The notes below the pieces were generated by a model. The model ran no database searches. It was not told where the DNA came from and saw only the letters and a program-made list of their open reading frames with translations. A program made the position numbers and the translations under genes. From a virus, in the IMG/VR virus record IMGVR_UViG_3300009160_000007, positions 1-49,361 of that record: DNA of 49,361 nucleotides, one strand, 5' to 3'. Shown here piece by piece: positions 39 to 49,361 of this stretch; position 1 is the first letter of the stretch; each line of letters opens with the position of its first letter.

Positions 39-84
39 TCTAGCGTTTAGGAAACGCCTGTCCTATCCGTTGAACGACAGGGCC
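13..84 (-). tRNA. tRNA-Arg (anticodon CCT)
   Basis: The minus strand folds into a standard 72-nt cloverleaf. The 7-bp acceptor stem pairs GGCCCTG with CAGGGCC, the anticodon stem pairs GGCGT with ACGCT around the loop TTCCTAA (anticodon CCT), and the T stem pairs CTAGG with CCTAG around TTCGATT. The discriminator is A and no CCA is encoded. It reads AGG, a very frequent arginine codon in the late genes of this phage. It lies between two early genes without a promoter of its own that I can see, so it is probably cut from the early transcript. Confidence 0.95.
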
Positions 85-91
85 GTGGTTA

Positions 92-805
92 TTAGAACGG
101 AACTTCGTCAGAGGTGTCGACGGAACCCGGGCCGGTCTTGGCCTTGAGGTATTCGTCGAGCGCGTTGCGAAGCGTCACGTCAGCTTCAGAGATGCCCTTG
201 TCGCCGTAAGGCTTGGGCTGCCATTCCTTAGCGTACCAGTCGAGACTGTTAGCCGGGAGTTGGCCAAGGGTCTGACCCTTGTTCTTACCGAAGTGGAGGG
301 TAGCATTGCGCCACTCGCCCTTAATGGACGTAGGAGCCTGCTTGGGCTTGGCCGGAGCGTCGTACGACGTCTTTGCGGCCGGCGTGTAGGTATTGGCCGG
401 AGCCTCTACCGCGCCCTGACCATCGTCATCCTCGGCGGCAAGATTTGCGATGGCCGACAATGCGTACCGGCGAAGGTAGCTATAGATCGAGCCAGCCTTT
501 TGCGCGTCGATCTTGGCCGGGTCCACGGGGATGTGGGCCTCGAACTCGATCTGGTCGCCGGTGACGTGGAGCAAGATGCTCTTGATGCCTACCTGTCCGC
601 TGTGCGAGGACGGGTGCTGGATAATAGTCCAGCCGTGCTTGGCAAAAGTTCCCTTGATGGCGTCAATGTGCGAACCGAGGGTCGCATACTTGTTGCCGAA
701 GTGGGGGTTCTTCGCGTCGAACTTTGGCGGTTGAACTTCGCTGATAGCCTTGACCAGAGCCGTGGAAGCGACGGCGCTGAGCTTGTTGTTGGTGTTGATG
801 TCCAT
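92..805 (-). CDS. erf: ERF-family single-strand annealing protein
   Basis: This 237-residue protein matches the ERF superfamily of phage recombinases (P22 Erf type), which anneal complementary single strands during recombination and concatemer formation. Visible family signatures are the N-terminal stretch with NPHFGNKYATLGSHIDAI (about residues 33-50), the block SYLRRYALSAIANLAAEDDD (about residues 108-127), and a low-complexity linker rich in Pro, Ala and Lys. The C-terminal third (about 160-237) is probably a separate small domain: GEWRNATLHFGKNKGQTLGQ resembles the C-terminal extension seen in some phage recombinases. Together with the PD-(D/E)XK exonuclease in the same gene block it makes a Red-like pair. 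The ATG is preceded by a C-rich leader ending CTCCCACC and has no Shine-Dalgarno sequence. Confidence 0.88.
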   Translation of the reverse strand: MDINTNNKLSAVASTALVKAISEVQPPKFDAKNPHFGNKYATLGSHIDAIKGTFAKHGWTIIQHPSSHSGQVGIKSILLHVTGDQIEFEAHIPVDPAKIDAQKAGSIYSYLRRYALSAIANLAAEDDDGQGAVEAPANTYTPAAKTSYDAPAKPKQAPTSIKGEWRNATLHFGKNKGQTLGQLPANSLDWYAKEWQPKPYGDKGISEADVTLRNALDEYLKAKTGPGSVDTSDEVPF

Positions 806-813
806 GGTGGGAG

Positions 814-972
814 TTATTTGGTTTGGGTGAATTTGGTGAGGAAGGCGCGAATGAGCATCGTGGTCAAGCCGCTGGTGGTGCGGTAATCGCTTTTCTTAGC
901 GAGGTGCTTAAGCGATTTGATCTCGGCCGGGCTGAGTCGAACAGTAAGGAAGTGGCGCTTATGCGGACGCAT
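814..972 (-). CDS. Small ribbon-helix-helix-like DNA-binding protein
   Basis: A 52-residue basic protein starting MRPHKRHF. The pattern HFLTVRLSPAEIKSLKHLAK (about residues 6-25) followed by a serine/threonine-rich turn and a second helix ending LIRAFLTKF resembles the ribbon-helix-helix fold: a beta strand that contacts DNA, then two helices. Such proteins are usually dimeric repressors or copy-control factors. I chose the internal ATG because the longer reading would run deep into the upstream coiled-coil gene; the chosen start overlaps that gene's stop by 14 nt, as is typical in this block. Its own last codons (ACC CAA ACC AAA TAA) form the CA-rich leader of the ERF gene. The function is inferred from fold resemblance only. 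Confidence 0.6.
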   Translation of the reverse strand: MRPHKRHFLTVRLSPAEIKSLKHLAKKSDYRTTSGLTTMLIRAFLTKFTQTK

Positions 973-1249
973 TGTTGTCGGCTTCCTCCCATTGCGTGAG
1001 CGCTGTGGATACGTCGCTGTCAGTAGACGCCGCTTTGTGGAGCGCGCGGCCGGCGGCCTGAAGCTCACCGATCTTTACGCGAAGCTTTTCGAAGTCTGCG
1101 TTGATAAGCTCCTGTGCCGCGATGATCTTGGCGACGCGCTCATTGAGGAGATGGTAATTCTCCTGAGCGTTCGCAAGCTCAGCCCGGGTAGCAAGAAGCT
1201 GGTTGTTGGTGTGAATGGCGTCGATAGCGCCTTTGATGATGTCGTCCAT
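959..1249 (-). CDS. Small alpha-helical (coiled-coil) protein, unknown function
   Basis: A 96-residue protein with no recognised family. Its middle (about residues 20-75) is rich in Ala, Leu, Glu and Lys, with heptad-like spacing (for example ATRAELANAQENYHLLNERV), so a coiled coil is likely. There are no cysteines and no membrane segment. It sits in the early block and overlaps the following ribbon-helix-helix gene by 14 nt, which suggests coupled translation. The upstream gap contains a strong GC hairpin with a GAAA loop. It might be a small scaffold or binding partner, but nothing in the sequence shows which. Confidence 0.6.
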   Translation of the reverse strand: MDDIIKGAIDAIHTNNQLLATRAELANAQENYHLLNERVAKIIAAQELINADFEKLRVKIGELQAAGRALHKAASTDSDVSTALTQWEEADNNASA

Positions 1250-1262
1250 AGTGGTAAAGGGT

Positions 1263-1278
1263 GCCCCCTTTCGGGGGC
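1263..1278 (-). promoter_or_regulatory. GC hairpin with GAAA tetraloop in the early mRNA
   Basis: On the minus strand the sequence GCCCCCGAAAGGGGGC forms a perfect 6-bp stem closed by a GNRA-type tetraloop. It lies between the stop of the 76-residue gene and the ATG of the 96-residue gene, about 13 nt before that ATG. It is not followed by a run of T, so it is not a standard intrinsic terminator. mRNA stabilisation, processing or translational control are possible. Confidence 0.6.
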
Positions 1279-1285
1279 CGGTTGG

Positions 1286-1516
1286 TTAGGCCTTCTTAGC
1301 GTTGATGATGGCTTCGAGGGCGGCGACGCGCTTGTGGAGGTCCTCAACAGCGAGAACAGTCGCATTGTGAATGCGGATCATCTCGGGCATGTCTTCGAAG
1401 GGGTTGACCTCCGAGTGGCGCTTCCCGAGCACCTCGATCATGGGATCGTGGAGTTCTCGGATCATGTTGTGGATCTCCTCATGGGAGACGACTTTGGTTG
1501 GCTTGATGTAGGCCAT
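1286..1516 (-). CDS. Early protein, 76 aa, unknown function
   Basis: I do not recognise this 76-residue protein. It is predicted to be mostly helical, with a histidine-containing first half (HEEIHNMIRELHDPMIEVLG, about residues 12-31) and a C-terminal helix VEDLHKRVAALEAIINAKKA that could form a short coiled coil. There is no metal-binding HExxH: the HEEIH match is a helical coincidence in a protein too small for a zincin domain. The start ATG is preceded by about 27 nt consisting only of A and C, the clearest example of the CA-rich leaders in this genome. Confidence 0.6.
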   Translation of the reverse strand: MAYIKPTKVVSHEEIHNMIRELHDPMIEVLGKRHSEVNPFEDMPEMIRIHNATVLAVEDLHKRVAALEAIINAKKA

Positions 1517-1543
1517 GTGTGTGGTGTGTGTTTGGTTTGGGTT
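1517..1543 (-). promoter_or_regulatory. CA-only 5' leader
   Basis: On the minus strand the 27 bases in front of the ATG contain only A and C, built from AACC/AAAC units and then CACACACC and ACACAC. There is no purine-rich Shine-Dalgarno sequence. Such a leader would be unstructured and G-free. Similar but shorter leaders precede the early genes starting at 2470, 5744, 6333, 6566 and 49313. Confidence 0.6.
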
Positions 1544-1561
1544 TGGTTTTCCGGATGGAAA

Positions 1562-2470
1562 TTACTTGGCGGCCTTAATCATGGCGACGACGGCCTCCAT
1601 GAGTTGGGCGTTAGTGGGATACTGCTCGTTGTGAGCGAGGTGCTTGCTGACGTCGGCAAGGCTGATGTTGAACCTGATCTGAACATCGTCGCCGACACCG
1701 GCGCCCCGGTACTTGCGCTCAACAGAAGCTACCTTGGAGTTAGGAATAAGGGCGGCGAGGATGGCGGCATTGGCCTTCAAGCAAGCATGCTCGGCGTTCG
1801 CGGTGGCTTTATCAGAGCGATGCTTAGCAAGCTCAGCGGAGGTCAACGTGGCCGCAGAATAAACGTTGGTCGAGAAGTGATGGCCGAAATTCTCGGCGAG
1901 GAGCTTAACAAGGCGCTTAGCGGTGGACTCCGGGTTGATCGGGCGGCCCTGATAGCTCTTAATGCTGCCGGTGGAAGCTTCGCTGGTGCGCTGGCATTCC
2001 GTGACTACGCCATCCCAAGTGCGCTTGGTGTCGGTATTAGGAAAGACGTTGTAGCTGCTGTAGCTGATGCAGTCGATAGCGCCGTTATTGCGGGTGCTTG
2101 TGCCGGTGATCGTCATGACGATGTTGCCGGTCTTGTCATGGGCGGTGAACGGGTTCTCGGGAAGCGCAACCACGCTATCAATCCAACTGAACTCTCCGGT
2201 GGTGATGAAATGCTTGCTGGTAAGGTCAGCGATATTGGCCTTAGCGGCGGCAATCTTGGCCTTATAAGCGTCGATGGCTTTGTTGCTGCTTTCGCCGAAG
2301 ATCACGCGGAACGTAGTCTTCTCATGGGAGCCTCCGTAGCCTCCGTTGTTGTGCTGGGTGACCTCGATGGCGGTCTTATAGCCGGCCTTGGCGAGTTCGG
2401 TGGTAACGGCGCTGACGAGGGCATTATAGCCTTCGGCGGTGACGTTGTGCTGTTCGATGGTGTTGCTCAT
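1562..2470 (-). CDS. Early protein, 302 aa, unknown function
   Basis: I do not recognise a family for this soluble 302-residue protein. It has alternating helical and strand-rich parts: an N-terminal helix (VSAVTTELAKAGYKTAIEV), a Gly/His loop (HNNGGYGGSHEKTTFRVIFG, about residues 40-59), a strand-rich middle, an Ala/Lys-rich helix around residues 210-235, and a C-terminal part VGDDVQIRFNISLADVSKHL. There are no transmembrane segments and no obvious nucleotide-binding or nuclease motif. It is the first gene after a 70-nt regulatory gap, so it probably heads its own transcript and may be highly expressed. The Arg and Ile codons look more conventional than in the late genes. Confidence 0.65.
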   Translation of the reverse strand: MSNTIEQHNVTAEGYNALVSAVTTELAKAGYKTAIEVTQHNNGGYGGSHEKTTFRVIFGESSNKAIDAYKAKIAAAKANIADLTSKHFITTGEFSWIDSVVALPENPFTAHDKTGNIVMTITGTSTRNNGAIDCISYSSYNVFPNTDTKRTWDGVVTECQRTSEASTGSIKSYQGRPINPESTAKRLVKLLAENFGHHFSTNVYSAATLTSAELAKHRSDKATANAEHACLKANAAILAALIPNSKVASVERKYRGAGVGDDVQIRFNISLADVSKHLAHNEQYPTNAQLMEAVVAMIKAAK

Positions 2471-2530
2471 GTGTGTTATTGGGTGAGGAGATCACTATCC
2501 CTATGTGTGCACTCTCGTGCAACACCTATT
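2471..2530 (-). promoter_or_regulatory. Early promoter/leader module A
   Basis: On the minus strand, in order: AATAGGT (2530-2524), 20 nt, TAGGGAT (2503-2497), then the leader CCTCACCCAATAACACAC directly before the ATG at 2470. The same three elements, in the same order and with 19 nt between the first two, precede the gene starting at 6566. A small palindrome TGCACGAGAGTGCA lies between the two boxes. A phage or sigma-factor promoter is the likely role; no clear -35/-10 pair of the E. coli type is present. Confidence 0.5.
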
Positions 2531-2540
2531 TAACAATTAC

Positions 2541-2972
2541 TTACTTAAAGTTGGTAAGTCGTTGATATGGAACGTGATATTCTTGCACTTTTGCCCTGAA
2601 ATTAGGGGGTGTAGAGCTGATTGTGCCCCCCATTCGGACGTATCCGGTGACTCCGAAGCGATATCCGGCATACACATCAGCAAAGGTGATCGGGCGGTTG
2701 AGTTTGGCCCGGAGACGTATGTAGGTAATTTCCAGATACGCAGCACAAGCTCGACGCGCGGCCCAGCGATTGTGTGCGTCAATCCATGGAGCCTTGGACA
2801 CTTCGCTCCATGCGTCATTGCTTATTCCATACGCACCGCGAGCTATGACAAATCCGCGCGACGTATGCAGGCATGCGTCAGGATCAGACACGCTGCCGGT
2901 CTCAAGCTTGCGCACCCATTCCGTCTGATCAGCAAGGCCAGTGACAGATGCAAGGAACATGAGCCACTTCAT
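2541..2972 (-). CDS. Lysozyme-like / lytic transglycosylase-like endolysin
   Basis: A 143-residue protein with a short hydrophobic N-terminus (MKWLMFLASVTGLA) that may be a signal or anchor, followed by a lysozyme-superfamily pattern. This consists of a Glu in KLETGS (E24, candidate catalytic acid), a Gly/Tyr block RGAYGISNDAW (residues 45-55), and a helical region with NRWAARRACAAYL ending in YRFGVTGYVR. This layout resembles small phage muramidases and SLT-type enzymes, which cleave peptidoglycan glycan strands. I chose the ATG at 2972 over the upstream GTG because GGAGG lies 8 nt in front of it, and because the ATGA overlap with the preceding gene fits the operon. It is odd that the enzyme sits in the early block, far from the holin. 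Assignment rests on motif resemblance. Confidence 0.55.
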   Translation of the reverse strand: MKWLMFLASVTGLADQTEWVRKLETGSVSDPDACLHTSRGFVIARGAYGISNDAWSEVSKAPWIDAHNRWAARRACAAYLEITYIRLRAKLNRPITFADVYAGYRFGVTGYVRMGGTISSTPPNFRAKVQEYHVPYQRLTNFK

Positions 2973-3124
2973 TTGATGAACCTCCACTTATTGCATGCTG
3001 CATTAAACAGGGCCATCCACCTTTTATGGTCAATGGCCCTGCGGCTAGATACCTTCCTGATTTCGAGAGGTGTGAGAAGCTTCATGCCGGGTCTCATAAG
3101 TTCTGGCCGGAGCTTCTGCTTCAT
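2969..3124 (-). CDS. Small basic protein, 51 aa
   Basis: A 51-residue ORF fits exactly between the DnaC-like gene and the lysozyme-like gene. Its ATG overlaps the upstream TGA (ATGA) and its own TGA overlaps the downstream ATG (ATGA). This double overlap is the best evidence that it is real. The product starts MKQKLRPELMRPGMKLL and ends NKWRFIK. It is strongly basic (many Arg/Lys) with several Met and Trp and one Cys, and has no membrane segment. I do not recognise a family; nucleic-acid binding is possible from charge alone. Confidence 0.65.
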   Translation of the reverse strand: MKQKLRPELMRPGMKLLTPLEIRKVSSRRAIDHKRWMALFNAACNKWRFIK

Positions 3125-3840
3125 ATCATCTCAGGCGTCTCAACGCCCGGCGCCACAGCTACGCTCGAGAACAGGTCCTTATCCTTGAGGCGCGCGACAA
3201 ACGCTGTGCCGATCTCTTTGTCCGGGAATCTATCAAGCAGCGACTGGCCGGTGTGGTTAGTCGTGATGATGGTGGGCCTAAGGGCTTGTGTGCGCTGGTC
3301 AATGAGCGCGAACAACACAGAGGCCATGCGTTCGGTCATCTTCTCTTTACCAAGGTCATCAAGGCCAAGCACGTCACACTCAACGAGGTCGCGCATCATC
3401 TTATCCCACCTATCCTTGCCCCACGCGGCAACAAGGTCGGCCTCAAGCTCGAACATGGTAAGGATACGTACGAAACGCTTAGCGCCCTTGAGCCTATTGC
3501 GCACATACCACATGCAACGGGTCTTACCCTTGCGAGTAGCTCCATGTATGATGATAGACCGCTTGGTCACAGCCGGGTCCCAATGCATGGCCACGTTGCG
3601 CAGCACCTCGGGCAGCCTGTTGGGATCAGTATCCTTGAACAGCTCCGGGCATCCATCTGTGTTGCTGGGGCTAGGCTTAATGCCCTCCTCCTTCGCGCGG
3701 ATGGCCTCAGCGGCCAACACGCAAGCTTCTGCGCAACAGTACTCAGCCGGCGCCAACCTAATCACATGGCCGGCAATCTCGAGCACGTTAGGCTGGATCA
3801 TGCAGCCGCAGTTCACACAGGGCTTAGCTTCGTGCGTCAT
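3121..3840 (-). CDS. DnaC/IstB-like AAA+ ATPase, probable helicase loader
   Basis: This 239-residue protein has the AAA+ motifs of phage DnaC-type helicase loaders, which place the replicative DnaB helicase on single-stranded DNA. Walker A is GATRKGKT (residues 100-107), Walker B is LGLDDLG (158-164), and the sensor-1 motif TTN is at 193-195. The N-terminus carries cysteines C8, C11, C36 and C40, a likely zinc ribbon, as in some DnaC/DnaI relatives. I chose the ATG at 3840 (MTHEAKP), which overlaps the preceding small gene by 17 nt and starts just before the first Cys pair. A longer start would add 16 residues lying fully inside that gene. No helicase gene is recognisable in the window, so it probably loads the host enzyme. 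Confidence 0.8.
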   Translation of the reverse strand: MTHEAKPCVNCGCMIQPNVLEIAGHVIRLAPAEYCCAEACVLAAEAIRAKEEGIKPSPSNTDGCPELFKDTDPNRLPEVLRNVAMHWDPAVTKRSIIIHGATRKGKTRCMWYVRNRLKGAKRFVRILTMFELEADLVAAWGKDRWDKMMRDLVECDVLGLDDLGKEKMTERMASVLFALIDQRTQALRPTIITTNHTGQSLLDRFPDKEIGTAFVARLKDKDLFSSVAVAPGVETPEMI

Positions 3841-3997
3841 TGTACATGGCCCTGATTGTCTTCTCGCTGAACGCCTTGAGGCGGCCATCGAGCCGAAGGT
3901 TGAAGTACCGCACCTTGCCCTTGGTCCTAGCCTTAAGCGGCCGGACCACGGAGCCGTCGGGCAGCATGTGGTACTTGGTGTCGTTGATCTGTTTCAT
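3824..3997 (-). CDS. Small NUMOD-like DNA-binding protein, 57 aa
   Basis: A 57-residue basic protein. The pattern YHMLPDGSVVRPLKARTKG followed by VRYFNLRLDGRLKAFSE and a C-terminal helix resembles the small NUMOD-type DNA-binding modules found next to HNH homing endonucleases, and also free-standing in phages. No HNH catalytic motif is present, so it is at most a DNA-binding module. The chosen ATG begins one base after the stop of the replication protein (TGA C ATG), and the 3' end overlaps the DnaC-like gene. Its position between an initiator-like protein and a helicase loader makes a replication role plausible but unproven. Confidence 0.55.
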   Translation of the reverse strand: MKQINDTKYHMLPDGSVVRPLKARTKGKVRYFNLRLDGRLKAFSEKTIRAMYNDARS

Positions 3998-3998
3998 G

Positions 3999-4655
3999 TC
4001 AGAATCCCTTGGCGTGGTCATTGTCGGACTGCGCCGGCTTCACCGCACGGCCGTAGAGGCCTGTGGCTGCCTTCACATGGATGGATTGCCACTCATTGCG
4101 AGTGGATACCTCAAGAGCGTCGATGGCGGACTTAGGATCGAAGCCAGACAGGTATTTCACCTGCTTGAGCATCCAGCTAACGCTGGTGGTCCACTTGCGG
4201 GCCCGGCGAACCTCAAGGTACTTACCCCACGCCATGTTCACGTCTCCATGGAGCTCAGCAATAGCTACCCCAAGCTCATACGCCTGTATCTTAGTCTTAT
4301 CATTTACATCAGTTGTATCTATAGGGTGAAGTTTCTTTCGCCCCTCACCGGAAGTTTTCTTCACCCCCCCGGTGAAGTTTTCTTCACCCTCTAAACTGAG
4401 TGTGACCACGTCCCAGAGCACACCCTTTTCGTCGCGCGTGATCAGGCCAGCCTCAATAAGCTCCCCAATCAGCATCTGGACGTTGCGGTCTGTGCAATGC
4501 AGGTAAGCACCAAGCGTAGCCCTAGAGGCATAGCACCCACGCTCATTACTGAGTATGTGTACGATGCTCCAGAGGAACTTGGCGTTCGTGCTGATGTTAG
4601 GGTTGCTGAATACTTTGGCCGGTATCCACACGCCCTTAAATGGCAGGTCACTCAT
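3999..4655 (-). CDS. Winged-helix replication protein (initiator/primosome-like)
   Basis: A 218-residue protein. The first ~75 residues (KGVWIPAKVFSNPNISTNAKFLWSIV and then the helix-turn-helix part SRATLGAYLHCTDRNVQMLI plus EAGLITR) form the winged-helix domain typical of phage replication and primosomal proteins that lie directly before a DnaC-like gene. The linker at about 90-115 is Glu/Gly/Lys-rich. The C-terminal half has Trp/Arg-rich helices (WGKYLEVRRARKWT, WMLKQVKYLSGF), similar in layout to DnaD-like or lambda-O-like partner domains. It overlaps the upstream 72-residue gene by 8 nt. The most likely role is origin recognition followed by recruitment of the helicase loader. The origin itself was not identified; in phages of this layout it often lies inside this gene. 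Confidence 0.68.
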   Translation of the reverse strand: MSDLPFKGVWIPAKVFSNPNISTNAKFLWSIVHILSNERGCYASRATLGAYLHCTDRNVQMLIGELIEAGLITRDEKGVLWDVVTLSLEGEENFTGGVKKTSGEGRKKLHPIDTTDVNDKTKIQAYELGVAIAELHGDVNMAWGKYLEVRRARKWTTSVSWMLKQVKYLSGFDPKSAIDALEVSTRNEWQSIHVKAATGLYGRAVKPAQSDNDHAKGF

Positions 4656-4866
4656 TGATCTTAGGCTTCACGCCGGCCTTAGGCTTGAATGGAGTAGCGC
4701 ATGCGAGCGCGCGGAACTTCTCAAGCTCCTCTTGAAGGATAGCGTAGTCCGCGTAAGGAACCCAGTTGCCATCTGGGTTGCGTACCATCTGGGCGAGACC
4801 GCCCTGCGGCGCGGACAGGACCATTACGTACCTGTTGCCGACGCCATCATGTGGTGTGAGTTCCAT
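4648..4866 (-). CDS. Early protein, 72 aa, unknown function
   Basis: A 72-residue protein with no family I recognise. The first half, starting MELTPHDGVGNRYVMVLSAP, looks strand-rich; the second half has a helix (YADYAILQEELEKFRALACA) and a basic tail rich in Lys and Pro. Short proteins with the pattern 'YADY..LQEELE' are common in phage early regions and have no known function. The start codon shares one base with the exonuclease stop (TAATG), and the 3' end overlaps the winged-helix gene, so translation is probably coupled across all three. Confidence 0.65.
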   Translation of the reverse strand: MELTPHDGVGNRYVMVLSAPQGGLAQMVRNPDGNWVPYADYAILQEELEKFRALACATPFKPKAGVKPKINE

Positions 4867-5744
4867 TACAGGCTCGAGCGCCAGAGGTACTTCTCATCAG
4901 AGAGACCAAGGTCACGTTGGGTGTGGATGCGGTACAGGCCGGCGATCAGGTCGCGCTTACCATAGTCGAGCGTCTGCTGGCTGATATCGAACGCGCGCGT
5001 ATTCATCGTGTCCTTAGCACTCACGACGTACGAGCATTCAACCGGCATCTTGAAGTGAGCACTAGCAAGCAGCGAATAGACGTAAGCCTGAAGGCCCCAG
5101 TTACTGTCGCGGCACTTGCGCTTGACCGCTTCGAATGTGCATTGAGGCGCGGTCTTGTAGTCGCCCACGAATACCTTACCAGAGTTGAGCACCTCGACGT
5201 AATCGAGCTGACCCTTGATAGAAATGTTCGGGATATGCGTATCGCCATGCTCGAGGTCAATCGTGGCCACAAGACTAAGCTCGAAGATAGGCTTAGATCC
5301 GCCGGCCGGATTAAGCGCTCGCATCAGCCTGAAGCCATCAATAGCAAGGGCGTTAGCCTTGGCTGCGATGTCCTCAGCGATGAGAAGCTTGCCCTTGGCC
5401 TCGGCCTCAAGCGTGAACATCTTATAGAGGTTCTTGCCTTCAGTCGTGCGCCTATCGAGCTTAGGCATGAGCTGATAGATATCACTAAGCTCCTCACCCG
5501 CGCATACCGAATGGTAATAGCGGCCAAGGATGATATCGTCGGTCATGTCCTGCTCGCTGTAGATCTTGTGCCCGGCGTTGCAGCCGTGCTCGAGAATCTT
5601 TTTGATCAGGCTCTGGTTGATGCCATCATGAATGCGATAGTCAGCCGTCGGAATGACGTTGACCTCACGAATCGTGATCTTGGCGTTGTCTGCGAACTCG
5701 CGCTCCCGGATGAGAGGCGAGATGTTGGTGTTGTTTGGGTCCAT
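4866..5744 (-). CDS. PD-(D/E)XK exonuclease (RecE/DUF3799-like)
   Basis: A 292-residue nuclease of the PD-(D/E)XK fold, closest in layout to the RecE-type/DUF3799 phage exonucleases that resect double-stranded ends for the annealing protein. The core signature is GQLDYVE (D181), a spacer, then VGDYKTA (D195, K197), with the upstream helix LGRYYHSVCAGEE (about residues 73-85) and the downstream WGLQAYVYSLLA helix (about residues 211-222) typical of the family. The N-terminal NVIPTADYRIHDGINQSLIK matches the family opening, where a substrate-proximal helix follows. It pairs functionally with the ERF protein. The leader CCACCCACACATAC precedes ATG without a Shine-Dalgarno sequence. Confidence 0.82.
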   Translation of the reverse strand: MDPNNTNISPLIREREFADNAKITIREVNVIPTADYRIHDGINQSLIKKILEHGCNAGHKIYSEQDMTDDIILGRYYHSVCAGEELSDIYQLMPKLDRRTTEGKNLYKMFTLEAEAKGKLLIAEDIAAKANALAIDGFRLMRALNPAGGSKPIFELSLVATIDLEHGDTHIPNISIKGQLDYVEVLNSGKVFVGDYKTAPQCTFEAVKRKCRDSNWGLQAYVYSLLASAHFKMPVECSYVVSAKDTMNTRAFDISQQTLDYGKRDLIAGLYRIHTQRDLGLSDEKYLWRSSL

Positions 5745-5761
5745 GTATGTGTGGGTGGAAA

Positions 5762-5911
5762 TTAGCGAGTGGTCATATCCTCAATCCAATCGAGAATCAT
5801 AGGCATGGCATCAGGGCCATACTCAACGCCGTCAATGACAACCTTTGGGGTGCCAGAGCTAAGCGCGCGGAATGCTGCGAACAACTCGCGTCGTTTGGTG
5901 TCGTCGCTCAT
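5762..5911 (-). CDS. Small early protein, 49 aa
   Basis: A 49-residue ORF starting MSDDTKRRELFAAFRALSSG and ending WIEDMTTR. Its ATG overlaps the stop of the upstream 141-residue gene (ATGA), and 17 nt separate its stop from the exonuclease ATG. It fills what would otherwise be a gap in a block of tightly packed genes, which supports it. The protein is acidic, with a helical N-terminus and the segment TPKVVIDGVEYGPDAMPMI, which looks like a short strand-turn-strand. No family is recognised. Confidence 0.6.
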   Translation of the reverse strand: MSDDTKRRELFAAFRALSSGTPKVVIDGVEYGPDAMPMILDWIEDMTTR

Positions 5912-6333
5912 TTGGTGCGGGATTTGATCACGCGAACATTGAGAGGAACGATGCGCACATCATCCCACGACACGCCATTGACGACCCGGGCCTCCTTGTC
6001 GCGCAGCTTCATAGCAAGGTTCATGTTGCCGCAGAATCCAGCGATCATCCAATATGGGCCATCGTTCTGATGGCGCTCATACGAGTCCTTGGCATTACGA
6101 AGCCAGCTGCTGAGCCACATCCAATCCTTATGGCCCTCGGTGATGAGGGCCTTCTTGGCCTCGATGTTGGCGATCTCAACCTTAAGCTGAGCAAGCTTGC
6201 GCTCGAGGAACTTAGGGCCACGCAAGCAAGCTACGACGTACTCGTATTTGCGCGGGCTGATGCGGCTGCCAATATCGACGTGGTCGAGCTGGGCCGTGTA
6301 TTCGTACTTTTCTGGTCTGAGGTTTGTGGTCAT
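5908..6333 (-). CDS. Early protein, 141 aa, unknown function
   Basis: I do not recognise this 141-residue protein. It begins with a charged segment containing two KYEY repeats (PEKYEYTAQL and PRKYEYVVAC), followed by a long helix (ERKLAQLKVEIANIEAKKAL, about residues 44-63) that could be a coiled coil. Next comes a Trp-rich middle (KDWMWLSSWLRNAKD, and GPYWMIAGFCGNMN), and a strand-rich basic C-terminus. There is no membrane segment. The leader ATCTCCCACACACAC lies directly before the ATG. The stop overlaps the next gene as ATGA. Confidence 0.62.
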   Translation of the reverse strand: MTTNLRPEKYEYTAQLDHVDIGSRISPRKYEYVVACLRGPKFLERKLAQLKVEIANIEAKKALITEGHKDWMWLSSWLRNAKDSYERHQNDGPYWMIAGFCGNMNLAMKLRDKEARVVNGVSWDDVRIVPLNVRVIKSRTK

Positions 6334-6347
6334 GTGTGTGTGGGAGA

Positions 6348-6566
6348 TTAGCGGTTACGAAGCTCAAGCTTCTCGAGCATAGCGTAGACCTCATTGATGA
6401 GGGTCGTGTTGAAGCTGATCGCGCGCTCCTTGCGCCGGATGTTGGCCGCAACGCTTGCGTCCGGGTCGATGGTGCCCCCGGTCTCGGCCTTGACGACCTT
6501 GGCTGTGTGTTCGTGGATGATAGCGAACAATGCGTCGCGTACCTTAAGTTCTGCTGCGGTTCTCAT
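6348..6566 (-). CDS. Early protein, 72 aa, unknown function
   Basis: A 72-residue, mostly helical protein (MRTAAELKVRDALFAIIHEH, then ERAISFNTTLINEVYAMLEKLEL). A longer reading with a GTG start exists, but the ATG is preferred because it is preceded by the same CCTCACCCAATCACACAC leader found in front of the gene starting at 2470. No family is recognised and there are no catalytic motifs or membrane segments. It is the first gene downstream of the second copy of the early promoter/leader module. Confidence 0.6.
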   Translation of the reverse strand: MRTAAELKVRDALFAIIHEHTAKVVKAETGGTIDPDASVAANIRRKERAISFNTTLINEVYAMLEKLELRNR

Positions 6567-6633
6567 GTGTGTGATTGGGTGAGGCAAACGTTTTGACCCA
6601 TCCCCTAGCTCATGTCAAGCTAGTTGACCTATT
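6567..6633 (-). promoter_or_regulatory. Early promoter/leader module B with inverted repeat
   Basis: On the minus strand, in order: AATAGGT (6633-6627), 19 nt, TAGGGGAT (6607-6600), then CCTCACCCAATCACACAC directly before the ATG at 6566. Module A (upstream of 2470) has the same order and spacing. An inverted repeat GTCAAGCTAGTTGAC (6614-6628) overlaps the first box, and a third GTCAA lies further downstream on the minus strand, so a repressor or activator site is plausible. TTGACA at 6618-6613 resembles a -35 box but has no matching -10. Confidence 0.5.
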
Positions 6634-6636
6634 ATT

Positions 6637-6712
<76 letters not shown>

Positions 6713-15491: not shown

Positions 15492-16823
15492 ATGGCAAAC
15501 CTCTACGAAAACCAGTTCCAGAACCAGCGCCCCCTCCCGGGTGCTCGCATCGGTATCCGAGAAGAACTCTCGGACCTGATCCTCAACGTCGACATGAAGG
15601 ACACGCCCATCACCTCGATGGCCAAGCGTGGTTCCAAGCCCGGAAACACCACGTTCCGCTGGCAGGTCGATCGCAACCCTGACCCGTCCATCGAACTTGG
15701 CGTCCTTGACGGCGCTGATGTCGATCCGACTAACCCCAAGGACTCCTCTGAGTTCAAGCAGTACACGATTGGCTACCGCACGGAAGTGGAAAATAACATC
15801 CACATGTTCCGCCGCGCTGTCCACGTGTCCAACCTGACTCAGGACATCCTGAACATCGCGGGCGTTAAGGACGAGCTGTCTCGACAGCTTTCCAAGGCCA
15901 CCCTCGACCTGAAGCGCTCGATGGAGCTTACCTTCACGTCTGACGTTCTGCCCGCCATCGACAACGGCACCCTCCCGTATCGCACTCGCTGCCTTACGTC
16001 GTGGATCAAGTCGGACCTCGCTACGGCTGGCACCAACGCTCAGTCCAAGTACGGCATCCAGACCTCGAACGCCTCCGCTGGCAACTATCGTCAGGTCATC
16101 CGCCCGATCGACTCGAACTTCACCACTCCTTCTACGTCCATCATTGGTACTGATCTCACGATCGATAACCTCTCTGAGAACGACGTTCAGGACGTGATGA
16201 CCTCAGTCTACGAGCAGACCGGCCAGTTCCGCTCACATGAAGCCGTCGTTGGAACCTCCCTAAAGAGGCAGTTCACCAACCTCGTCTACACCCAGCGCGC
16301 CCCGGCCGCCGGCAACATCACCACCAATCGCGACGCTAACGCGGATACCATTAAGGCTTCCGTGGACGTGTTCGAAGGTGACTTCGGCCGCCTGTCGCTG
16401 ATCCCGTCCCAGTTCCTCCACGCTGGCGTCAACCCCTACACCATCAAGTTCGTCTCTGGCGACGTTGACGGCGAATGGCACGTCTATGACGGCGTCCAGT
16501 CCATCGCGGCTAACGTGGTCGACAACAAGGTCACTTGGGCTGGCGACGTTCCGACTGTCACGGCCGGAACTAACAACGCCAAGTACGCCACCGAGGCCGA
16601 CGCCAAGAAGCACGTGAACCTTCACGCGCAGAACGCCAAGTGCAAAGGCTTCATCATCCCGTGGGAATACCTCGAAATCCGCTATGGTGGCAACATCGCG
16701 CAGGTTCGTGAGCTCACGGAAAATGGCGGTGGTCCTCGTCGCATGATGGAAGCTATGGCCGCTCTGGTCGTCCAGAGCCCCCTATGCTTCGGCATGTTCG
16801 ACTACAAGGCCAACAACGCCTAA
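15492..16823 (+). CDS. Major capsid protein (SU10/DUF5309-like, HK97 fold)
   Basis: A 443-residue capsid protein with the layout of SU10-type/DUF5309 major capsid proteins. The N-terminus contains EELSDLILNVDMKDTPITSM, followed by NTTFRWQVDRNPDP, then EVENNIHMFRRAVHVSN and the spine-helix-like AGVKDELSRQLSKATLDLKR. A loop-rich middle follows, and the end has a characteristic C-terminal strand EYLEIRYGGN. The gene is strikingly different in codon use from its neighbours: almost no AGG or ATA, and mostly CGC/CGT, ATC and CTC, as expected for the most expressed virion gene. The leader CTAAAAACCCAAGACC lacks a Shine-Dalgarno sequence. I am confident in the role and less so in the exact family. 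Confidence 0.85.
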   Translation: MANLYENQFQNQRPLPGARIGIREELSDLILNVDMKDTPITSMAKRGSKPGNTTFRWQVDRNPDPSIELGVLDGADVDPTNPKDSSEFKQYTIGYRTEVENNIHMFRRAVHVSNLTQDILNIAGVKDELSRQLSKATLDLKRSMELTFTSDVLPAIDNGTLPYRTRCLTSWIKSDLATAGTNAQSKYGIQTSNASAGNYRQVIRPIDSNFTTPSTSIIGTDLTIDNLSENDVQDVMTSVYEQTGQFRSHEAVVGTSLKRQFTNLVYTQRAPAAGNITTNRDANADTIKASVDVFEGDFGRLSLIPSQFLHAGVNPYTIKFVSGDVDGEWHVYDGVQSIAANVVDNKVTWAGDVPTVTAGTNNAKYATEADAKKHVNLHAQNAKCKGFIIPWEYLEIRYGGNIAQVRELTENGGGPRRMMEAMAALVVQSPLCFGMFDYKANNA

Positions 16824-27445: not shown

Positions 27446-28437
27446 TGATCGACGACCCAGAGGATATCGACCCGGACGTCCTCGCGGCTGCCGTTAGGTC
27501 CCAGCTAGACAACTACGACTCTGACACGGCCGATAGGTCTCCGCAGGGCTATGCCCCTGCGCAAATGTCTGACACTCAGGTAATTAGGGCAATGGGTAAG
27601 GACCCGCTGGAGTTGATGGACCCGAGCTTTGCGCGCGAGGCAACGGCGTACCGAGCTGCCGTCGGCAAGGATCAGGCCCTTCGTGCCAAGGCTGCCGCAG
27701 ACCAAGCCAAGCTGATGCAGAAGCAGATGGACCCTTCCTACATAGCCCAGCAGGTGTACGGCTCTACGGGCAACATAGGTGCGGCCCGAGTCATATCGAA
27801 ATCCAAGGGTCCAGCCCTATTTAACCATGGCGAAACTGTGGAAATGGGCCGGGGCGGTAGCTATGCCATTATACCCTCTGGAGAAATTATGGAGACCGGC
27901 CCTGATGGTAAACCAAAGCGAACCAGCATGAGTCATTACATACAGCGAAATGGGGTTAGTGTAGTTCCATTCATAGGCGGCGATGAGGCAGCTATAACTT
28001 GGAGGGGGGCAGCGGCCAAGACTAGCGAACTAATGGACGTCCTAGACCAGATTGAGGACCTTTACAATAAGCCCGGCTTTAAGAGTATGCCATTCAGCGA
28101 TACCAATAGGCAACTCGAACAGCTAGAGTCAGGCCTAGTGAATATTGTATCTCAGCTCAAAACCGGGTCAAAGAGTATGGCCGGCGTGTCTGACTTGGAA
28201 ATGGAGAACCTGCTTAAGGGATTACCAGCGGCCGGGTCTAACTTAACCCAGCCGGTTGCAACTGGACTTGAGCGAGTATCCAAGACGAGGGAGCAGGTAA
28301 GAGGAATACTGATGCGTACGGCATTGATGAACGGGCTTGTGCTTACGCCACTTAAGGCTAAAGCTGAAGTCACCGCAGGCTCTCCCATAGGCCAGCGATC
28401 ATCCTCTACACCTCCCGGACTAAATGGACCAAAGTGA
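27445..28437 (+). CDS. Putative internal virion protein, 330 aa
   Basis: A 330-residue protein immediately before the giant gene, overlapping it by 14 nt. The N-terminus is acidic (DDPEDIDPDVLAAAVRSQL), the first half Gln/Ala/Lys-rich helical (RAKAAADQAKLMQKQMDPSY), the middle beta-like with a Gly/Arg loop, and the end helical again (VSKTREQVRGILMRTALMNG) followed by a disordered tail. No family or motif is recognised. Close coupling to the giant ORF suggests the two products are made together and may assemble in the virion. Confidence 0.5.
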   Translation: MIDDPEDIDPDVLAAAVRSQLDNYDSDTADRSPQGYAPAQMSDTQVIRAMGKDPLELMDPSFAREATAYRAAVGKDQALRAKAAADQAKLMQKQMDPSYIAQQVYGSTGNIGAARVISKSKGPALFNHGETVEMGRGGSYAIIPSGEIMETGPDGKPKRTSMSHYIQRNGVSVVPFIGGDEAAITWRGAAAKTSELMDVLDQIEDLYNKPGFKSMPFSDTNRQLEQLESGLVNIVSQLKTGSKSMAGVSDLEMENLLKGLPAAGSNLTQPVATGLERVSKTREQVRGILMRTALMNGLVLTPLKAKAEVTAGSPIGQRSSSTPPGLNGPK

Positions 28438-31400
28438 TAACGAACAGGTAAACTCAGACGGACTAGACATACAGAAGACGCGAGATCTTCTGGCAAGGCA
28501 GGGAGTTCCCGTCGCAAGGCAGGCCCTCCCTGATTTTTTGGATCCAGTTGCAGCCGAGGAGTCACAGCAGGACCCGCATCTACAAGAGCTAAGGAATAGG
28601 GAATGGACCGGTAAAGATTACGCCGAGTTCCTTAGGTCAGAGGAGGGCGGAAAGTTTAAATTTTCATTCGACGATACCGGCAGGGAGGCGTTCAAGAAAT
28701 ACAAGCAGTACATGGCTGATAAGACCATGGAGTTTGTTGGCCCTGCAGAAATGGCGCTTCGTCAAATGGGTCAAGAAATAGGCGAAGGCATATCTAATTT
28801 CCCAAACCCGCTCACCGATCCTGCTGCCGCTGCAGCAACGACGGCAGAAGGTGCCTTTAGGGGCCTAAGGGACCTTTATGGAGTTCTGTGGCAGTCTGAA
28901 GACCCAAGTAGCCCTCTATTTAAGTTCAGGAGCTGGGCCACCGCGCTAGTAGGCAAAGATGATGGCGACATAGATTCGCAAATGCGCCAGTTCCATATGG
29001 CTCGCGAGCACAACGCAGCCACTTATGAGCAGAACTCCGTGCTAGCATCAATGCTTCCGGAATCTTGGAGGGATGGGTTCAGCTCAAAGGTGAACCAGAA
29101 AGGTTCTATTGGACTTGCGTACATAGCTTTGGATCTACCCGAAATGATAATGAGCGCGGGAGCTTCAACTCCAGCCTCTGCAGCAAGGATAGCAGCTATG
29201 GGCGGAAGCCATGCGGCCCGGGTTGCCAAATCAGCCAAAGTTGCTGACTCATGGATTCAGGCTACCGCAGGACGCTACCAGACTTTTGCACAGCGCGTTG
29301 CTGGCGGTGCGCTTGAATCAGCCGGTGGAGTAGCCCGCGCTCCGTTCAAGGCTATGTACGGAACCAGTCAAGCTGCCGCGCAGCTAGCCGGTGACTACGC
29401 TGGTAATGCTGTGCGAAACATGGCTACGGCTGAAATAGTTGAAGCTGGCGCCACACTACTTGGATCTACTGCCGTGCATCCTGTAGTCGGATTCATGCGT
29501 AGCTTTGGAGCTGAGGCGCTCGGAGAAGTCATGCAGGTAGCTGGCGCTGACATGGTTGATAGGGCTCTCGGCAAAACTATGGTCAGGGCTGACTCTCTTG
29601 GTGCGACTACGCTTGAGCGACTTGCGGCTGGCACAGCCAAGGGCGCGGACGCCATGTCGCGCGAAGCTCAGATTCTAGCTAAGGGCATCAATGCGACGAT
29701 CGGATGGGCTCCTTCACTTTCTGGAGCTGCCCTTAAGGCGGCCTACAGGGATGGAATGTTTGGAGCAGCACTAGGTTATGCCAACTCTCCGAGCGAAGGA
29801 GCTGGAGCCGGTATTGCAATGGGTACTGCATGGGGAGGCTTCTCTGGAAGTGTAAGGCATCTTCATTCATATACTCATTACGCCCCGCAAGACTCTAGGG
29901 TCGTTGATAATTTTAGGGACTATGTGATACCGGCGTTCGGCCGCGTTGCCGGCTCCACCAGCATGGAGATGGCAAAGCGGTTCTACGATCACGTCAACTC
30001 TTTCGGAGACCTTAGGACTAGCTCCATAGAACTTTCGCACATATCCACCTTGGTGGCGCACGAAGCCAGCCTTGTCGGCGAAGGGAACGTGATGTTCTAC
30101 TTCGGCAAGAGTGATCAGGAGTTCAGCAATGTGCTAGCCGAGTCCAACGTCAAGGGAGGCGACTATGATAAGCTCATGGACTCCTTCAGGACTATGGGCT
30201 CTGCAGCCGGCATGTTCGAGAAAGTGACCATGAATGATGGCACAGTTAAGAGACTGATAGCTATCAACTCAGACCTGTACAAGCCTACCACCGGCCGACA
30301 CGAAATCTCCCACGCCCTGTTTAGGTCCGTGGTCGAAGCTAACGCTGAGATGGATTCTGTTATCGATAAGGCAACCGGCCGATACATGGGTGACGTCTTT
30401 AACCCTGCCTACGCCAGCCGCATATTCGGAACCTCCAAGGATATGGGCGTAATGCCTGATGCAGCTTGGGAGTCTCTAATGACCAGCTACGGAGCTGCTA
30501 GGGACTGGACCGACTACGGCAAGCCAAGCGACCCGGAGATGGTGAAAAAGATAGGAGAGATGGCTAAGGCCAACTACGGAACCCTGCTCACCCGCCTTCG
30601 CGACCACCTCAACAAGGGCGTGGATATGCAGAAGTTTGAAGTCATGGACGACTTCAGGACGGCCACCAATATGGCCGAGGAAGCTTTCGCCTACTACGCG
30701 TCTGGTACCTCTAACGTTTTCCCGGTAGACAAGTACGTCAAGGACCCGGCCGCTCGCAACTTGCTCAGGTCTTGGGCGGAGAACAGGGCAGCTAGGAAGA
30801 ACAGCAGAATACTTTCGGGGCTCGAAGAAGCTGGCGTGGAGATCAAGGCCAAGTTCACCAATACCGACGGAAGCCCTAAGATACTGGACGACAACGGCAA
30901 CCCGGCCATCGAGACCTACATGTTCGATGACGGCGTCGTTGTCAGGACTCCGGGCATGGACTCATGGGTCGAGTCCGTGCTCAAGCAGGCGTACGCTAGG
31001 TCTGAGGTTCTGGTATCAACCCTTGATCCAATGCGTCAGGAAGCTTTCGCAAAGGAGCATGGCAAGGTGCACCTATTCAAGTCGTTGCCCTCCGGCGGCA
31101 TGAGGCTCAAGTCTCCCTCGGAGCTCGACGAGGCCTCCCAGATTCAGGCCAACAAGATACTCAGCGCCATACAGGGCGTGAGCGAAGATGTCAGGCCCGT
31201 CATCGAGTCTATGCCTGATGGCTCGGTTAAGCTCAGGCTTGAGACCGCTAACGCTGAGACGATGGCTGCCATCCAGTCCTCTGGAGCCCTGACACCTCAG
31301 GAGTTCAACGAGCTTTCCGCGATAGTAAAGATAGCTGAAAAGAACCGCATGGGCGACGTGACGTTCAATGTGATGACCGGAACCTTACTTGCGCACAGCA

Positions 31401-34400
31401 AGCAGGTGCGCAAAGCCGGCGGCGTTTATAGGCTTACAGGCTCCGACGTCCCTGTCACCTACAGGACTTTCATGCCTTACGCGGTTGAGGTAAATCTCAA
31501 GACGCACGACTCGGAGGGCAACCCTCTGCGCGCGGCCAAGGGCGGCATCCTGATCCACTCCGTCGACGTTGCTGCCGTGAACCGCAGGCTGATGAAGACC
31601 TTTAAGCGAGCTGACGTCAGGAGCATCTTTAACGGCAACTTCTCTGAGTTCGTGGACAGGTTCAACCTGTACGTATCTAACCAGTCCGGACTAAACGGAG
31701 CCAAGGTACCGAGCGCAGATCTATTCAGGGCTGAGTACGGCGACAGGGCAGAACGAGTAAGGGATATAATGTACGAGGCTTTTGGTGGCCGTAAGCGCAA
31801 AGATGACGCGTTCATCAACACCCCAGCTGATGGCTACATCGGCGGAGCAGATGACCCCAATAGGCCCTTCTTCACGATGCGTCTTGATACGCTCGCTGAT
31901 ATCAAGGTCCACCCGACGTCTTGGAACGTGCACAGCAAGGTGCAGCCCTTCCCGTTCGTTCATGTTCAGGGATATGATGGCATAGCTCGCAACTTCCAGA
32001 TCACCGGATTCACCGAGCGTGATATCGGTAACGGCAAGAAGTACCTCAAGGACAACAATGGGTTCGAGGTCTATGAGACCAAGACTGGTTTTGCCCTCTA
32101 TGATCCGTTTGGCATCAAGATAAGCGTATTCAAGACGGCCAAAGCCGCCATGAAGCGAGCTGGAGCTGAAGTCGCTCACATAAGCGAAGCCGACCTGCAG
32201 CCTGCGTCTGTCGACATGATCAACATGTCAAGTCCCCACGACGAAGCCCTAGCTAAGCTGGAGTCAACGACTGAGTCGCTTAATGTTCACGTTAGGTATC
32301 AGCTCTCCGGTCTGGTTAAGCACGTCAAAGAATCCAGCCACGGCGGCAAGAGCGTGGTTGATCACTTGTTTGAGTACGCATCCAAGGATTCCGGCGCTAG
32401 GTACTCCCATCCTCTTGGTGACGTTGAGAGCTCTTTCTCCAAGAAGTTTATCCCGCTGGTAGAAATACTTGGGGAAGCTGCCGGAGACTTTAACACCACC
32501 ATTGAAGTCGATGGCAAGAAGTACGACGTGTCTATGAGGGACACTCAGATAGCTTTTGCGGATGAAGACACTGGTGTAGCTAGGGGCACGGAAGTGGTTG
32601 GCACATTCCAGAACGAGCTACTGCGTGTTGATAAGTCTTGGTTTAAGCATCTGTACAACACCGACAAGGAGCTACTGTCTGATCAGCTTGCGCGTCGTAT
32701 GGCCATAGCGGTCAAGTACAACGCCCTTCATAAAGCCGGTAAGGTAAACCTTCCTACGGCCATGACGGCATCCGCCATCCAGAGCTACAGGAGGATGGGA
32801 GAGCTTATGGCCGAAGCGGCCGGCGGAGACAGGGATACTAGGGATGAAAACATATCTAAGCTGCTCGCTAAGCATGGAGAAGGCATGGCCCAGCTAGGTG
32901 CCGACATAGATTGGTCGTTCTTTGAAGCAGGAGACCCCACCAAGGCCAATAGGTCTAAGCAGCGCGGCCAATCAACGTCTTCATTCAACCCGTCTACGTT
33001 TACCAAGGGTGTCATCAGTGTGCCAGATCACTGGCAAGCTGCGCTTAACGCCATCGAGGTTGATGAGTCTATGGCTTCGCTACCTGACATCGAAGGCATG
33101 GCAATAGGAGCAGCAATAAAATCAGCCGCGCGGCAAGCTTACGGCGATAAGCTTGGTGGCATGCCTCCCGTGTATCTGGATGTGTCAGCCCTAACTCCTG
33201 ACCCCAAGATGCGTCCTCGCATTATGAACGCCCTCATGCAGGCAGGTGGCCGCGCGGGTGAGTTCCTAGAGTTCCATTCATCTAACACCGGGATCAGGGA
33301 CATACAGGGGGCCATTGAAAGCTACCTAGTCCAAGCAGAGAAGCACAGGCCGACTGGCGTAGATGATGCCGAGTACGCCAATGCCAATAAGCCAATGCGA
33401 GAAGGCATGGCCAAGCAGCTAATCTCTGACTACAGCGCTGCAGTAAAGCGACTGGCGGCCGGCGGTGGCATGTTCCAGAAGTCGGTAGCTGGCTTCTTTG
33501 ACAAGCAGGGCAAGCTTAGGCAGGAGGCTGGGACTAAGAAGGGCTTTATCACGTCTGCTGTCATAGCTGATTTTTCCAATCCGGACGTCCAGACAGTGGT
33601 GTCCATGACCAATTTGTTCACCGCGCTGCGCGAGATCACCAAGGAGATTAGCAAGGGTGACCGCGAGTCCTTGGCTGACCACCAGAGGGATTACATCCGC
33701 GTCCTGTCTTTGATCATGAGGGTCACCAATGACTCCAGCCTTATCTTCCATGAGATGAGGACGCTTGACGATAGGGGTATGAAGCCGGGCATGAGTGAAA
33801 TCAGGGCTAAGAGCGGACTATTCAATGGAGGCCATAATCAGGGCATGGATTTCTATACCCTACCTCCGAGTATCGGAGAGGTGGTTACTTCGACTTCCAT
33901 AAACGGGCAAGCAAAGAAGCGTAACATTGCCTACGTTCCTGTCAATGTAAACAGGCAGCCTCCGGGCAGGGCTCTAAGGATAGCCGAGGAGCGAGGAATG
34001 CACGTCGGCTCTAGTGGCATACCTGCCATGATAGCTGCACAGCCAAAAGGATCTAGCAGTCATGCAATAAGCATCGCTGACGTGTCACATATCGTCGGAA
34101 CCTCAACTGAGGTTAGGGCGTTCATGTCCAACACTAGCGGCAAGGCTATGAGCACTATAGACCCAAGCAGCCTTAAGAGGGGCGCTGGCTCTATCATACC
34201 GGGCGGCAACGCTTGGGATGGTATCATGCCTCCCATGGCCTTGCAGTTCTTCGCAAGCAAAGACGGCCCAGCTAAGCTGATGGCCATGATGCCTGACGCC
34301 AAGGAGGCTACCAAGGAAACGCTTCTTGCCCACATGTCACTAGCTCAGGCTATGGGTATCATGAGGAAGGTTGAGGATGATATGGTGAACGGCGGAGAGA

Positions 34401-48528: not shown

Positions 48529-48626
48529 CACGGCTAGGGCCCTCTATACGCTATCTGTGTTGGTTGTGAGATCGCGTGTGGGGTGGCTAAGCCTTAAAGG
48601 GCCGCAAGTCGGCCCGCCCTGAAGCG
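48529..48626. other. Noncoding end of late region, with hairpin
   Basis: No gene. The plus-strand late genes end here, facing the minus-strand tRNA genes. A hairpin GGGCCG-CAAGT-CGGCCC lies at 48599-48615; read on the minus strand its stem is followed by TTTAAG, so it may end the minus-strand tRNA transcript. A TTGACA at the very end of the last gene has no matching -10 box. Confidence 0.45.
48599..48615 (-). terminator. Possible terminator hairpin after tRNA-Ser
   Basis: Perfect 6-bp GC stem (GGGCCG with CGGCCC) and 5-nt loop. On the minus strand it is followed by TTTAAG, a short T run. It would stop transcription coming from the tRNA genes and keep it from running into the late genes. It is weaker than the hairpin after tRNA-Leu. 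Confidence 0.4.
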
Positions 48627-48711
48627 CAGAGGAAGTGGGATTCGAACCCACGGCCGGTTGCCCGACTTCGGTTTTCAAGACCGACGCATTAAGCCGCTCT
48701 GCCATCCCTCT
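48627..48711 (-). tRNA. tRNA-Ser (anticodon TGA)
   Basis: An 85-nt class II tRNA. Acceptor AGAGGGA pairs with TTCCTCT (one G-T pair), the anticodon stem TCGGT pairs with ACCGA around CTTGAAA (anticodon TGA), a long variable arm with GTCGGGCAACCGGCC follows, and the T stem GTGGG pairs with CCCAC. The discriminator is G; no CCA is encoded. It reads UCA and related serine codons. The terminator after tRNA-Leu lies between the two tRNA genes. Confidence 0.93.
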
Positions 48712-48752: not shown

Positions 48753-48778
48753 AGAGGCCCGACTTTCGTCGGACCTCT
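48753..48778 (-). terminator. Rho-independent terminator after tRNA-Leu
   Basis: On the minus strand AGAGGTCCGAC-GAAA-GTCGGGCCTCT forms an 11-bp stem (one G-T pair) with a GAAA loop, followed by TTTGTTT. It begins at the last base of tRNA-Leu, so the stem directly adjoins the mature tRNA. Read from the plus strand no T run follows. Confidence 0.8.
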
Positions 48779-48859
48779 GCTCAGGAAGGGAGTCGAACCC
48801 TTACGCCTTATCGGCCACGGCGCCTAAGGCCGTTGCGTCTGCCGTTCCGCCACCTGAGC
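48778..48859 (-). tRNA. tRNA-Leu (anticodon TAG)
   Basis: An 82-nt class II tRNA. Acceptor GCTCAGG pairs with CCTGAGC, the anticodon stem ACGGC pairs with GCCGT around CTTAGGC (anticodon TAG), a long variable arm with TGGCCGATAAGGCG follows, and the T stem AAGGG pairs with CCCTT. The discriminator is A; no CCA is encoded. It reads CUA, a codon often used in the late genes. It lies 4 nt downstream of the stop of the early gene at 48864-49313, so it probably shares that transcript. Confidence 0.93.
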
Positions 48860-49313: not shown

Positions 49314-49323
49314 GTGTGTGTGT

Positions 49324-49361
49324 GGGGGAAAGTTATGGCCCTGCTAGGAATCGAACCTAGA
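49324..49361. repeat. Terminal direct repeat, right copy (contig overlap)
   Basis: Identical to the first 38 bases of the window. The second partial copy of the tRNA-Arg gene seen here is an effect of this overlap and should not be counted as an additional tRNA. Confidence 0.9.

Follow-up and report, generated by a model that had tools for sequence, protein, structure and literature searches.

How do ribosomes find the early genes of a phage that offers them no Shine-Dalgarno (SD) sequence? The question is raised by a viral record of 49,361 nucleotides (nt), IMGVR_UViG_3300009160_000007 of IMG/VR, which was analysed over its whole length and is called the window here. An earlier note had listed eight genes in it (starts at 805, 1249, 1516, 2470, 5744, 6333, 6566 and 49313) and claimed that each is preceded by a G-poor leader of A and C (an AC leader) and by no SD, the leaders looking like a phage-specific signal for translation initiation or mRNA recognition. 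We find that the feature is real and conserved, and it is probably functional. It is not a substitute confined to early genes but the strong form of leader in an SD-poor family of uncultured phages.

The ends of the window share a 38-bp repeat, and the window is therefore probably a complete circular or circularly permuted phage genome of about 49.3 kb. A block on the minus strand, which we call early, includes genes for an ERF annealing protein, an exonuclease VIII-like protein, a DnaC-like loader and an O-like protein. The plus-strand block, called late, includes terminase, portal, scaffold-like and major capsid genes as well as a giant frame of 6259 amino acids (aa). Both labels derive from strand and gene content.

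All eight listed starts are minus-strand ATGs and none has a purine-rich SD at normal spacing. Seven have the leader as described, in tracts of 14-38 nt that end at the ATG. The exception is 1249, whose leader is mixed and which lies behind a GC hairpin; the region from -40 to +40 around this start has a fold energy of -21.3 kcal/mol (base fractions are given in Table 1). The interval to which the trait had been assigned (1517-6600) does contain it, but the trait also reaches 806 and, round the terminal repeat, 49313. The repetition exceeds chance, as had been supposed: of the 18 early starts 7 have a combined A and C fraction (AC) of at least 0.75, but of the 178 other minus-strand ATGs in this block only 5 do (Fisher p=1e-5), and the leaders are conserved among relatives. 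The leader of the 76-aa gene is the most extreme and the best conserved (AC 0.90-1.00 in 16/16 orthologues), while AC is at least 0.75 in 17/18 leaders of exonuclease orthologues and in 8/8 of those of the 149-aa gene. Eleven of the 18 called early genes, including those for the DnaC-like loader and the O-like protein, have no AC leader. The same threshold is reached by 4 of 25 late starts. One is that of the capsid gene, whose leader is also of this type, though milder (AC 0.75 in the window and 0.70-0.90 in 18/18 genomes).

A query with the capsid gene found 76 related loci among viral contigs. The DnaC-like gene was present in 25 of 30 related records tested. Twenty of the 30 were fetched whole, one (G017) was partial and not used, and nine were left out. 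Genes were called in the window and the 20 records using our own caller, which is blind to leaders. The set used for statistics comprises 18 genomes (the window and 17 relatives, phages of about 48 kb). G013 and G024 were excluded because the caller missed the giant gene, probably since its frame crosses the record end, and placed false genes opposite; G030 was excluded as a fragment (26 kb) that yielded no late marker gene. Counts of A/C runs ending at an ATG cover 20 genomes, with G030 alone excluded. Profile, SD, structure and correlation statistics concern genes matched in at least two other genomes (670 of 767 called), whereas the codon comparison between groups of families selected genes by family label. 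A gene is 'gapped' if at least 12 nt separate it from the gene upstream.

Start-aligned profiles, which the earlier note had proposed, bear out its description in the related phages. Early gapped genes (n=132, 28 clusters) have A37 C39 G10 T14 % at -20..-1. The base at -1 is C in 70%, and A and C alternate as far as -7 in a CACACAC register. Composition is ordinary again at -36..-21, where G returns to 23%. Late gapped genes are milder (n=132; A30 C31 G18 T22 %), and overlapping early genes have A33 C33 G20 T14 % (n=96). A/C runs of at least 12 nt ending at the ATG number 71 on the early strand and 9 on the late strand, against 3 and 4 in block-shuffled controls. The SD core was scored throughout with the same caller and measure, with T7 as positive control (0.83 of T7 leaders vs 0.25 shuffled). 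There is no excess in early gapped genes (0.07 vs 0.05) nor in late gapped genes (0.02 vs 0.07). Early genes do lack an SD, but this does not set them apart, as the late block lacks it too.

The early gapped starts are also open. The unpaired probability at -20..+3 is 0.68 against 0.60 in dinucleotide shuffles, and 0.52 against 0.51 for late gapped genes. The bias is alike on both sides of the start, with A 0.39, C 0.29, G 0.18 and T 0.13 at +4..+33.

AC leaders belong to defined gene families. For the codon comparison below we chose eight AC and eight non-AC families by their leader AC. The former are ERF, exonuclease, a 78-aa protein and clusters 26, 49, 79, 110 and 111 (mean AC 0.76-0.96); the latter are the O-like and DnaC-like families and clusters 0, 32, 33, 35, 51 and 65 (0.47-0.64). 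Among orthologues, AC richness is kept while the letters change, for example between CACACAC, CCAACCAACC and CAAACCAAAC. Pairwise leader identity is 0.41 for ERF, 0.40 for exonuclease and 0.54 for the 78-aa family, where composition alone predicts 0.37, 0.35 and 0.46; it is higher in cluster 26 (0.58 vs 0.38) and cluster 110 (0.54 vs 0.36). The proposal of a sequence-specific mRNA-recognition signal is therefore not supported, since orthologous leaders mostly keep composition rather than sequence. In G008, G010, G012, G018 and G021 the ERF leader overlaps the upstream gene and is AC-rich all the same, which argues for selection acting on the leader and not on spacer DNA.

Codon adaptation, which serves only as a proxy for expression, was measured against each genome's own capsid gene with the first 12 codons excluded. 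It is 0.62 in the AC families (n=91) and 0.46 in the others (n=99), with a gene-level p of 3e-22. As G010 and G012 nearly duplicate each other, this value is too small, and trust belongs to the test by family. In that test, leader AC of early families correlates with codon adaptation (rho 0.50, p=0.003, n=32). The partial correlation controlling for coding AC is also 0.50, and a far-upstream control (-60..-41) gives rho 0.07. The early genes with AC leaders are thus probably strongly expressed.

The position of the tract, ending at the ATG, the loss of structure and the link with codon adaptation agree with the role in translation initiation that had been suggested. We consider it likely that AC leaders serve ribosomes as unstructured landing sites for initiation without an SD. 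No pairs form between A and C, so a leader of 14-38 nt made of them would stay single-stranded. The A/C-rich gene start would prolong the open region and leave the AUG exposed. The C directly before the AUG, together in some leaders with an upstream pyrimidine tract (UUUCC, UCUCC, CUCCC or UUUCA), could then allow 30S binding through ribosomal protein S1, which probably assists initiation on these leaders. Since little or no SD is seen anywhere in these phages, the AC leader would mark the strongest class within an SD-poor system, a style that is probably the host's normal one.

Several observations weigh against this interpretation. Openness exceeds that of dinucleotide shuffles by a modest margin only, and openness alone would not require a register as regular as CACACAC. 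Late families show no codon link (rho 0.14, p=0.39, n=39), and clusters 116 and 125 have AC leaders with low codon adaptation (0.43-0.44). In addition, ungapped late genes keep a weak excess of the SD core (0.19 vs 0.07 shuffled), so the SD may not be wholly absent from the family.

The term 'phage-specific' is not supported, because a second phage lineage, of about 62% GC, has this UUUCC/AC leader as well. The combined module TAATTTCC-N1-9-CACACACATG is found in 20 viral loci, in 19 of which it precedes a frame of 61-288 aa; 19 of the 20 loci are on contigs of the SD-poor, AC-leader style. The remaining one, L205, is a chance match (36% GC, SD-using, 18-aa frame). The second lineage comprises ten loci (L186, L188-L191, L194-L196, L198 and L206) of roughly 60-63% GC. 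Compared with 19 window proteins or pieces, it has ERF at about 30-32% identity, exonuclease at 25% in one contig only, and two late-strand proteins in common at 42-58%. L184, L192 and L202 are further contigs: the L184 terminase is 62% identical to that of the window, and none of the tested window genes was found in L192 or L202. The caller placed no start at the motif in L184, L186, L190 and L191. One of ten loci in a separate motif set, L185, is likewise neither before a called start nor matched to a family. A broader proposal can be offered only tentatively, and we would rate it as doubtful: that bacteria of one SD-free lineage, and their phages, mark starts with a two-part element in which a UUUCC-like pyrimidine tract comes first and then a tract of A and C only, in CA register. 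This element would stand in for the SD in a strength-graded way, would be recognised by S1 or some other component of the 30S subunit, and would let several phage lineages give priority to recombination and other early genes.

Regularity in the leaders might instead mean that messages are selected by a phage or host protein, or by a small RNA, that binds an element of UUUCC plus CA repeats. Among the 132 early gapped leaders, 43 contain CACACA (7.7 in shuffles), with its register fixed relative to the ATG. The pyrimidine tract (TTTCC, TCTCC, CTCCC or TTTCA) is present in 50 of them (about 38%; 14 in shuffles), mostly some 15-25 nt upstream, and the combined module recurs in the 19 loci described above. 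The exchange of CACACAC for CCAACCAACC or CAAACCAAAC between orthologues, which mostly preserves composition only, makes such a reader unlikely, and no bS21 gene was found in any of 14 records searched, other candidate factors not having been searched. Pairing of the leader with 16S rRNA outside the SD was set aside, without computation, because no single partner fits both CACACAC and CCAACCAACC.

The tracts could also act on the transcript, as segments between cistrons for Rho loading or for RNA processing and stability, with translation not the target. They do have more C than G, and some follow tRNAs or GC hairpins, which suggests processed 5' ends. We nevertheless regard this as very improbable, given that the window tracts are so short and end at the ATG, that in relatives they persist where the leader falls within an upstream coding region, and that composition is normal again just upstream of them. 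That leaders merely follow an A/C-rich early strand in highly biased genes is scarcely plausible: the strand is skewed and C-ending codons are more frequent in AC-leader families (0.50 vs 0.38), but G is 0.27 in coding sequence and 0.10 in leaders, and the far-upstream and partial correlations given above speak against it.

The landing sites that we favour are bounded on their 5' side, be it by a stop codon, a tRNA, a putative promoter or a GC hairpin. In the window, five of the seven AC leaders come after a stop codon or tRNA; the other two have a putative promoter whose predicted start would leave about 20 nt. Both putative promoters are conserved, by eye, in the three genomes carrying those genes. 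A generic promoter scan gave 4 sites against 5.3 expected, none of them at leaders and neither putative promoter among them. A 23-nt stretch containing CTCCTCACCCAATAACACAC, the leader at 2470, occurs again before 6566 with 96% identity.

GC hairpins adjoin several early starts on the upstream side, in the window and in relatives. At a similar gene boundary the arms are CCCCC-loop-GGGGG in some relatives and GGGGG-loop-CCCCC in others, which suggests that the hairpin itself is kept and not its sequence. tRNA-Arg(CCT) is present in many relatives, and the gene right after it is often one with an AC leader, so tRNA processing may generate the 5' ends of some mRNAs.

Table 1. Features of the window. 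AC/G, fractions of A plus C and of G over the 20 nt upstream of the ATG.
Feature	Coordinates	Strand	Start	AC/G	Remarks
AC leader of ERF gene	806..838	-	805	0.90/0.00	AC>=0.9 tract up to ATG; 18 orthologues, mean AC 0.83
GC hairpin GCCCCC-GAAA-GGGGGC, then ACCCTTTACCACT	1263..1278	-	1249	0.55/0.25	fold; upstream of 1249
38-nt AC-rich leader of 76-aa gene (1286-1516)	1517..1554	-	1516	1.00/0.00	
AC leader CTCCTCACCCAATAACACAC of 302-aa gene (1562-2470)	2471..2490	-	2470	0.85/0.00	
Putative sigma-70-type promoter TTGCAC-N17-GATAGT	2494..2522	-			upstream of 2470
Leader TTTCCACCCACACATAC of exonuclease gene	5745..5761	-	5744	0.75/0.00	directly 3' of preceding TAA
Leader TCTCCCACACACAC of 141-aa gene (5908-6333)	6334..6347	-	6333	0.80/0.05	abuts preceding stop codon
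CTCACCCAATCACACAC-type leader of 72-aa gene (6348-6566)	6567..6583	-	6566	0.80/0.05	
Putative promoter TTGACA-N17-CAAAAC	6590..6618	-			upstream of 6566, in tRNA-leader interval
Leader TAACTTTCCCCCACACACACAC of 149-aa gene (48864-49313)	49314..49335	-	49313	0.85/0.00	adjoins tRNA-Arg(CCT)
ERF single-stranded DNA annealing protein gene	92..805	-			AC-leader class; PF04404 1.1e-16, phrog_2324 3e-30
Exonuclease VIII (RecE)-like gene	4866..5744	-			AC-leader class; phrog_412 3e-14, PF12705 6e-6
Major capsid gene	15492..16823	+			late gene, codon reference; phrog_1328 9e-36
Four tRNA genes	13-84, 6637-6712, 48626-48711, 48777-48860	-			between early genes

The 6259-aa frame (28424-47203, plus strand) takes up 38% of the genome, and the longest frame in most relatives is 5.3-6.5 thousand aa. 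Searched as four overlapping pieces, the protein matched nothing in Pfam and a single PHROG, at E=0.046; the idea that it is a virion RNA polymerase was rejected on that outcome. One 51.9 kb relative (G005; L123 and L125) has near-identical copies of an early gene block at both ends (for example, genes at 52-3517 and 48318-51765), which reflect either a true duplication or two variants assembled together.

The leader style is common to lineages that share little else, which suggests that a host group used by all of them imposes it. Among 84,980 species genomes, no relative was found with the capsid alignment, and a protein query from the second lineage gave no match in named phages. The tRNA-Arg(CCT) pattern was found at six loci, four titled Yanofskybacteria, Paceibacterota or Wolfebacteria and two titled 'bacterium'. 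Five of the six tRNAs share 56-60 of 72 positions with that of the phage, a similarity too small to name these groups as host. The leader pattern TTTCC-N1-9-CACACACATG was found in none of 286 genomes of the phylum titled in those matches. Searches with tRNA-Arg returned 96 mixed phage records and four plasmids, at 78-82%, which we take to be from Bacteroidota. With tRNA-Met, 273 plasmid records matched; the genera listed were mostly Proteobacteria, Escherichia among them. Bacteroidota, Verrucomicrobiota and others are possible hosts.

Related signals have been described. In many phyla, genes without an SD are weakly structured and have C adjoining the start, with C or A near -15 and U near -25 (PMC5397173). 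The SD is scarce in Bacteroidota and some Verrucomicrobiota, among other bacteria (PMC10783764), and Bacteroidetes use upstream adenines (PMC6847099). In such bacteria (Bacteroidota, Chlorobi, some Verrucomicrobiota and cyanobacteria), non-SD genes show an A/U or C/A bias and weak structure around the start. The phage leaders resemble them in lacking an SD, in a G-poor, relaxed start and in having C before the start, C/A near -15 and U further upstream (PMC5397173, PMC10783764). They differ in consisting almost only of A and C, in their CA repeats and in being concentrated in defined early families. In Salmonella yifK and dppA mRNAs, initiation is enhanced by ACA triplets that lie upstream of the SD, tolerate changes of position and have S1 as their proposed reader; an ACAA repeat cited in the same paper promotes SD-less initiation (PMC3879156). 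The phage tracts are likewise ACA-rich but have no SD and end at the AUG. In Escherichia coli, translation is raised by CA repeats placed downstream of the start, with or without a leader (Martin-Farmer and Janssen 1999, cited in PMC9031893); those of the phages are also near the start but are natural, upstream and family-wide, and the gene start is A/C-rich as well.

Among phages, the GC-rich Salinibacter ruber phage M1EM-1 has similar leaders (C 0.37, A 0.28; 30 annotated starts), although milder, with G at 0.19 and AC of at least 0.8 in 2 of 37 starts from our own caller. Flavobacterium phage 11b is also SD-free, yet A/U-rich (A53 T31 %). The early gapped starts do not follow the Flavobacterium-type, Kozak-like pattern of A at -3 and -6: the base at -3 is C in 52% and A in 26%, and that at -6 is A in 61%. 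We found no paper on AC-only phage leaders among the matches listed from an open-licence collection, which is weak evidence of absence.

How ribosomes find SD-less starts is debated, and open structure, S1 binding and specific bases have all been proposed. Here, about 130 natural early leaders have drifted in sequence while certain families kept their A/C composition, tied to codon adaptation. Such leaders allow composition, order, openness and individual bases to be varied separately. They also call for caution with gene callers that rely on SD motifs in viral metagenomes. What the window contains looks like a clean natural example of SD-free initiation, common to at least one other phage lineage, rather than a private phage code.

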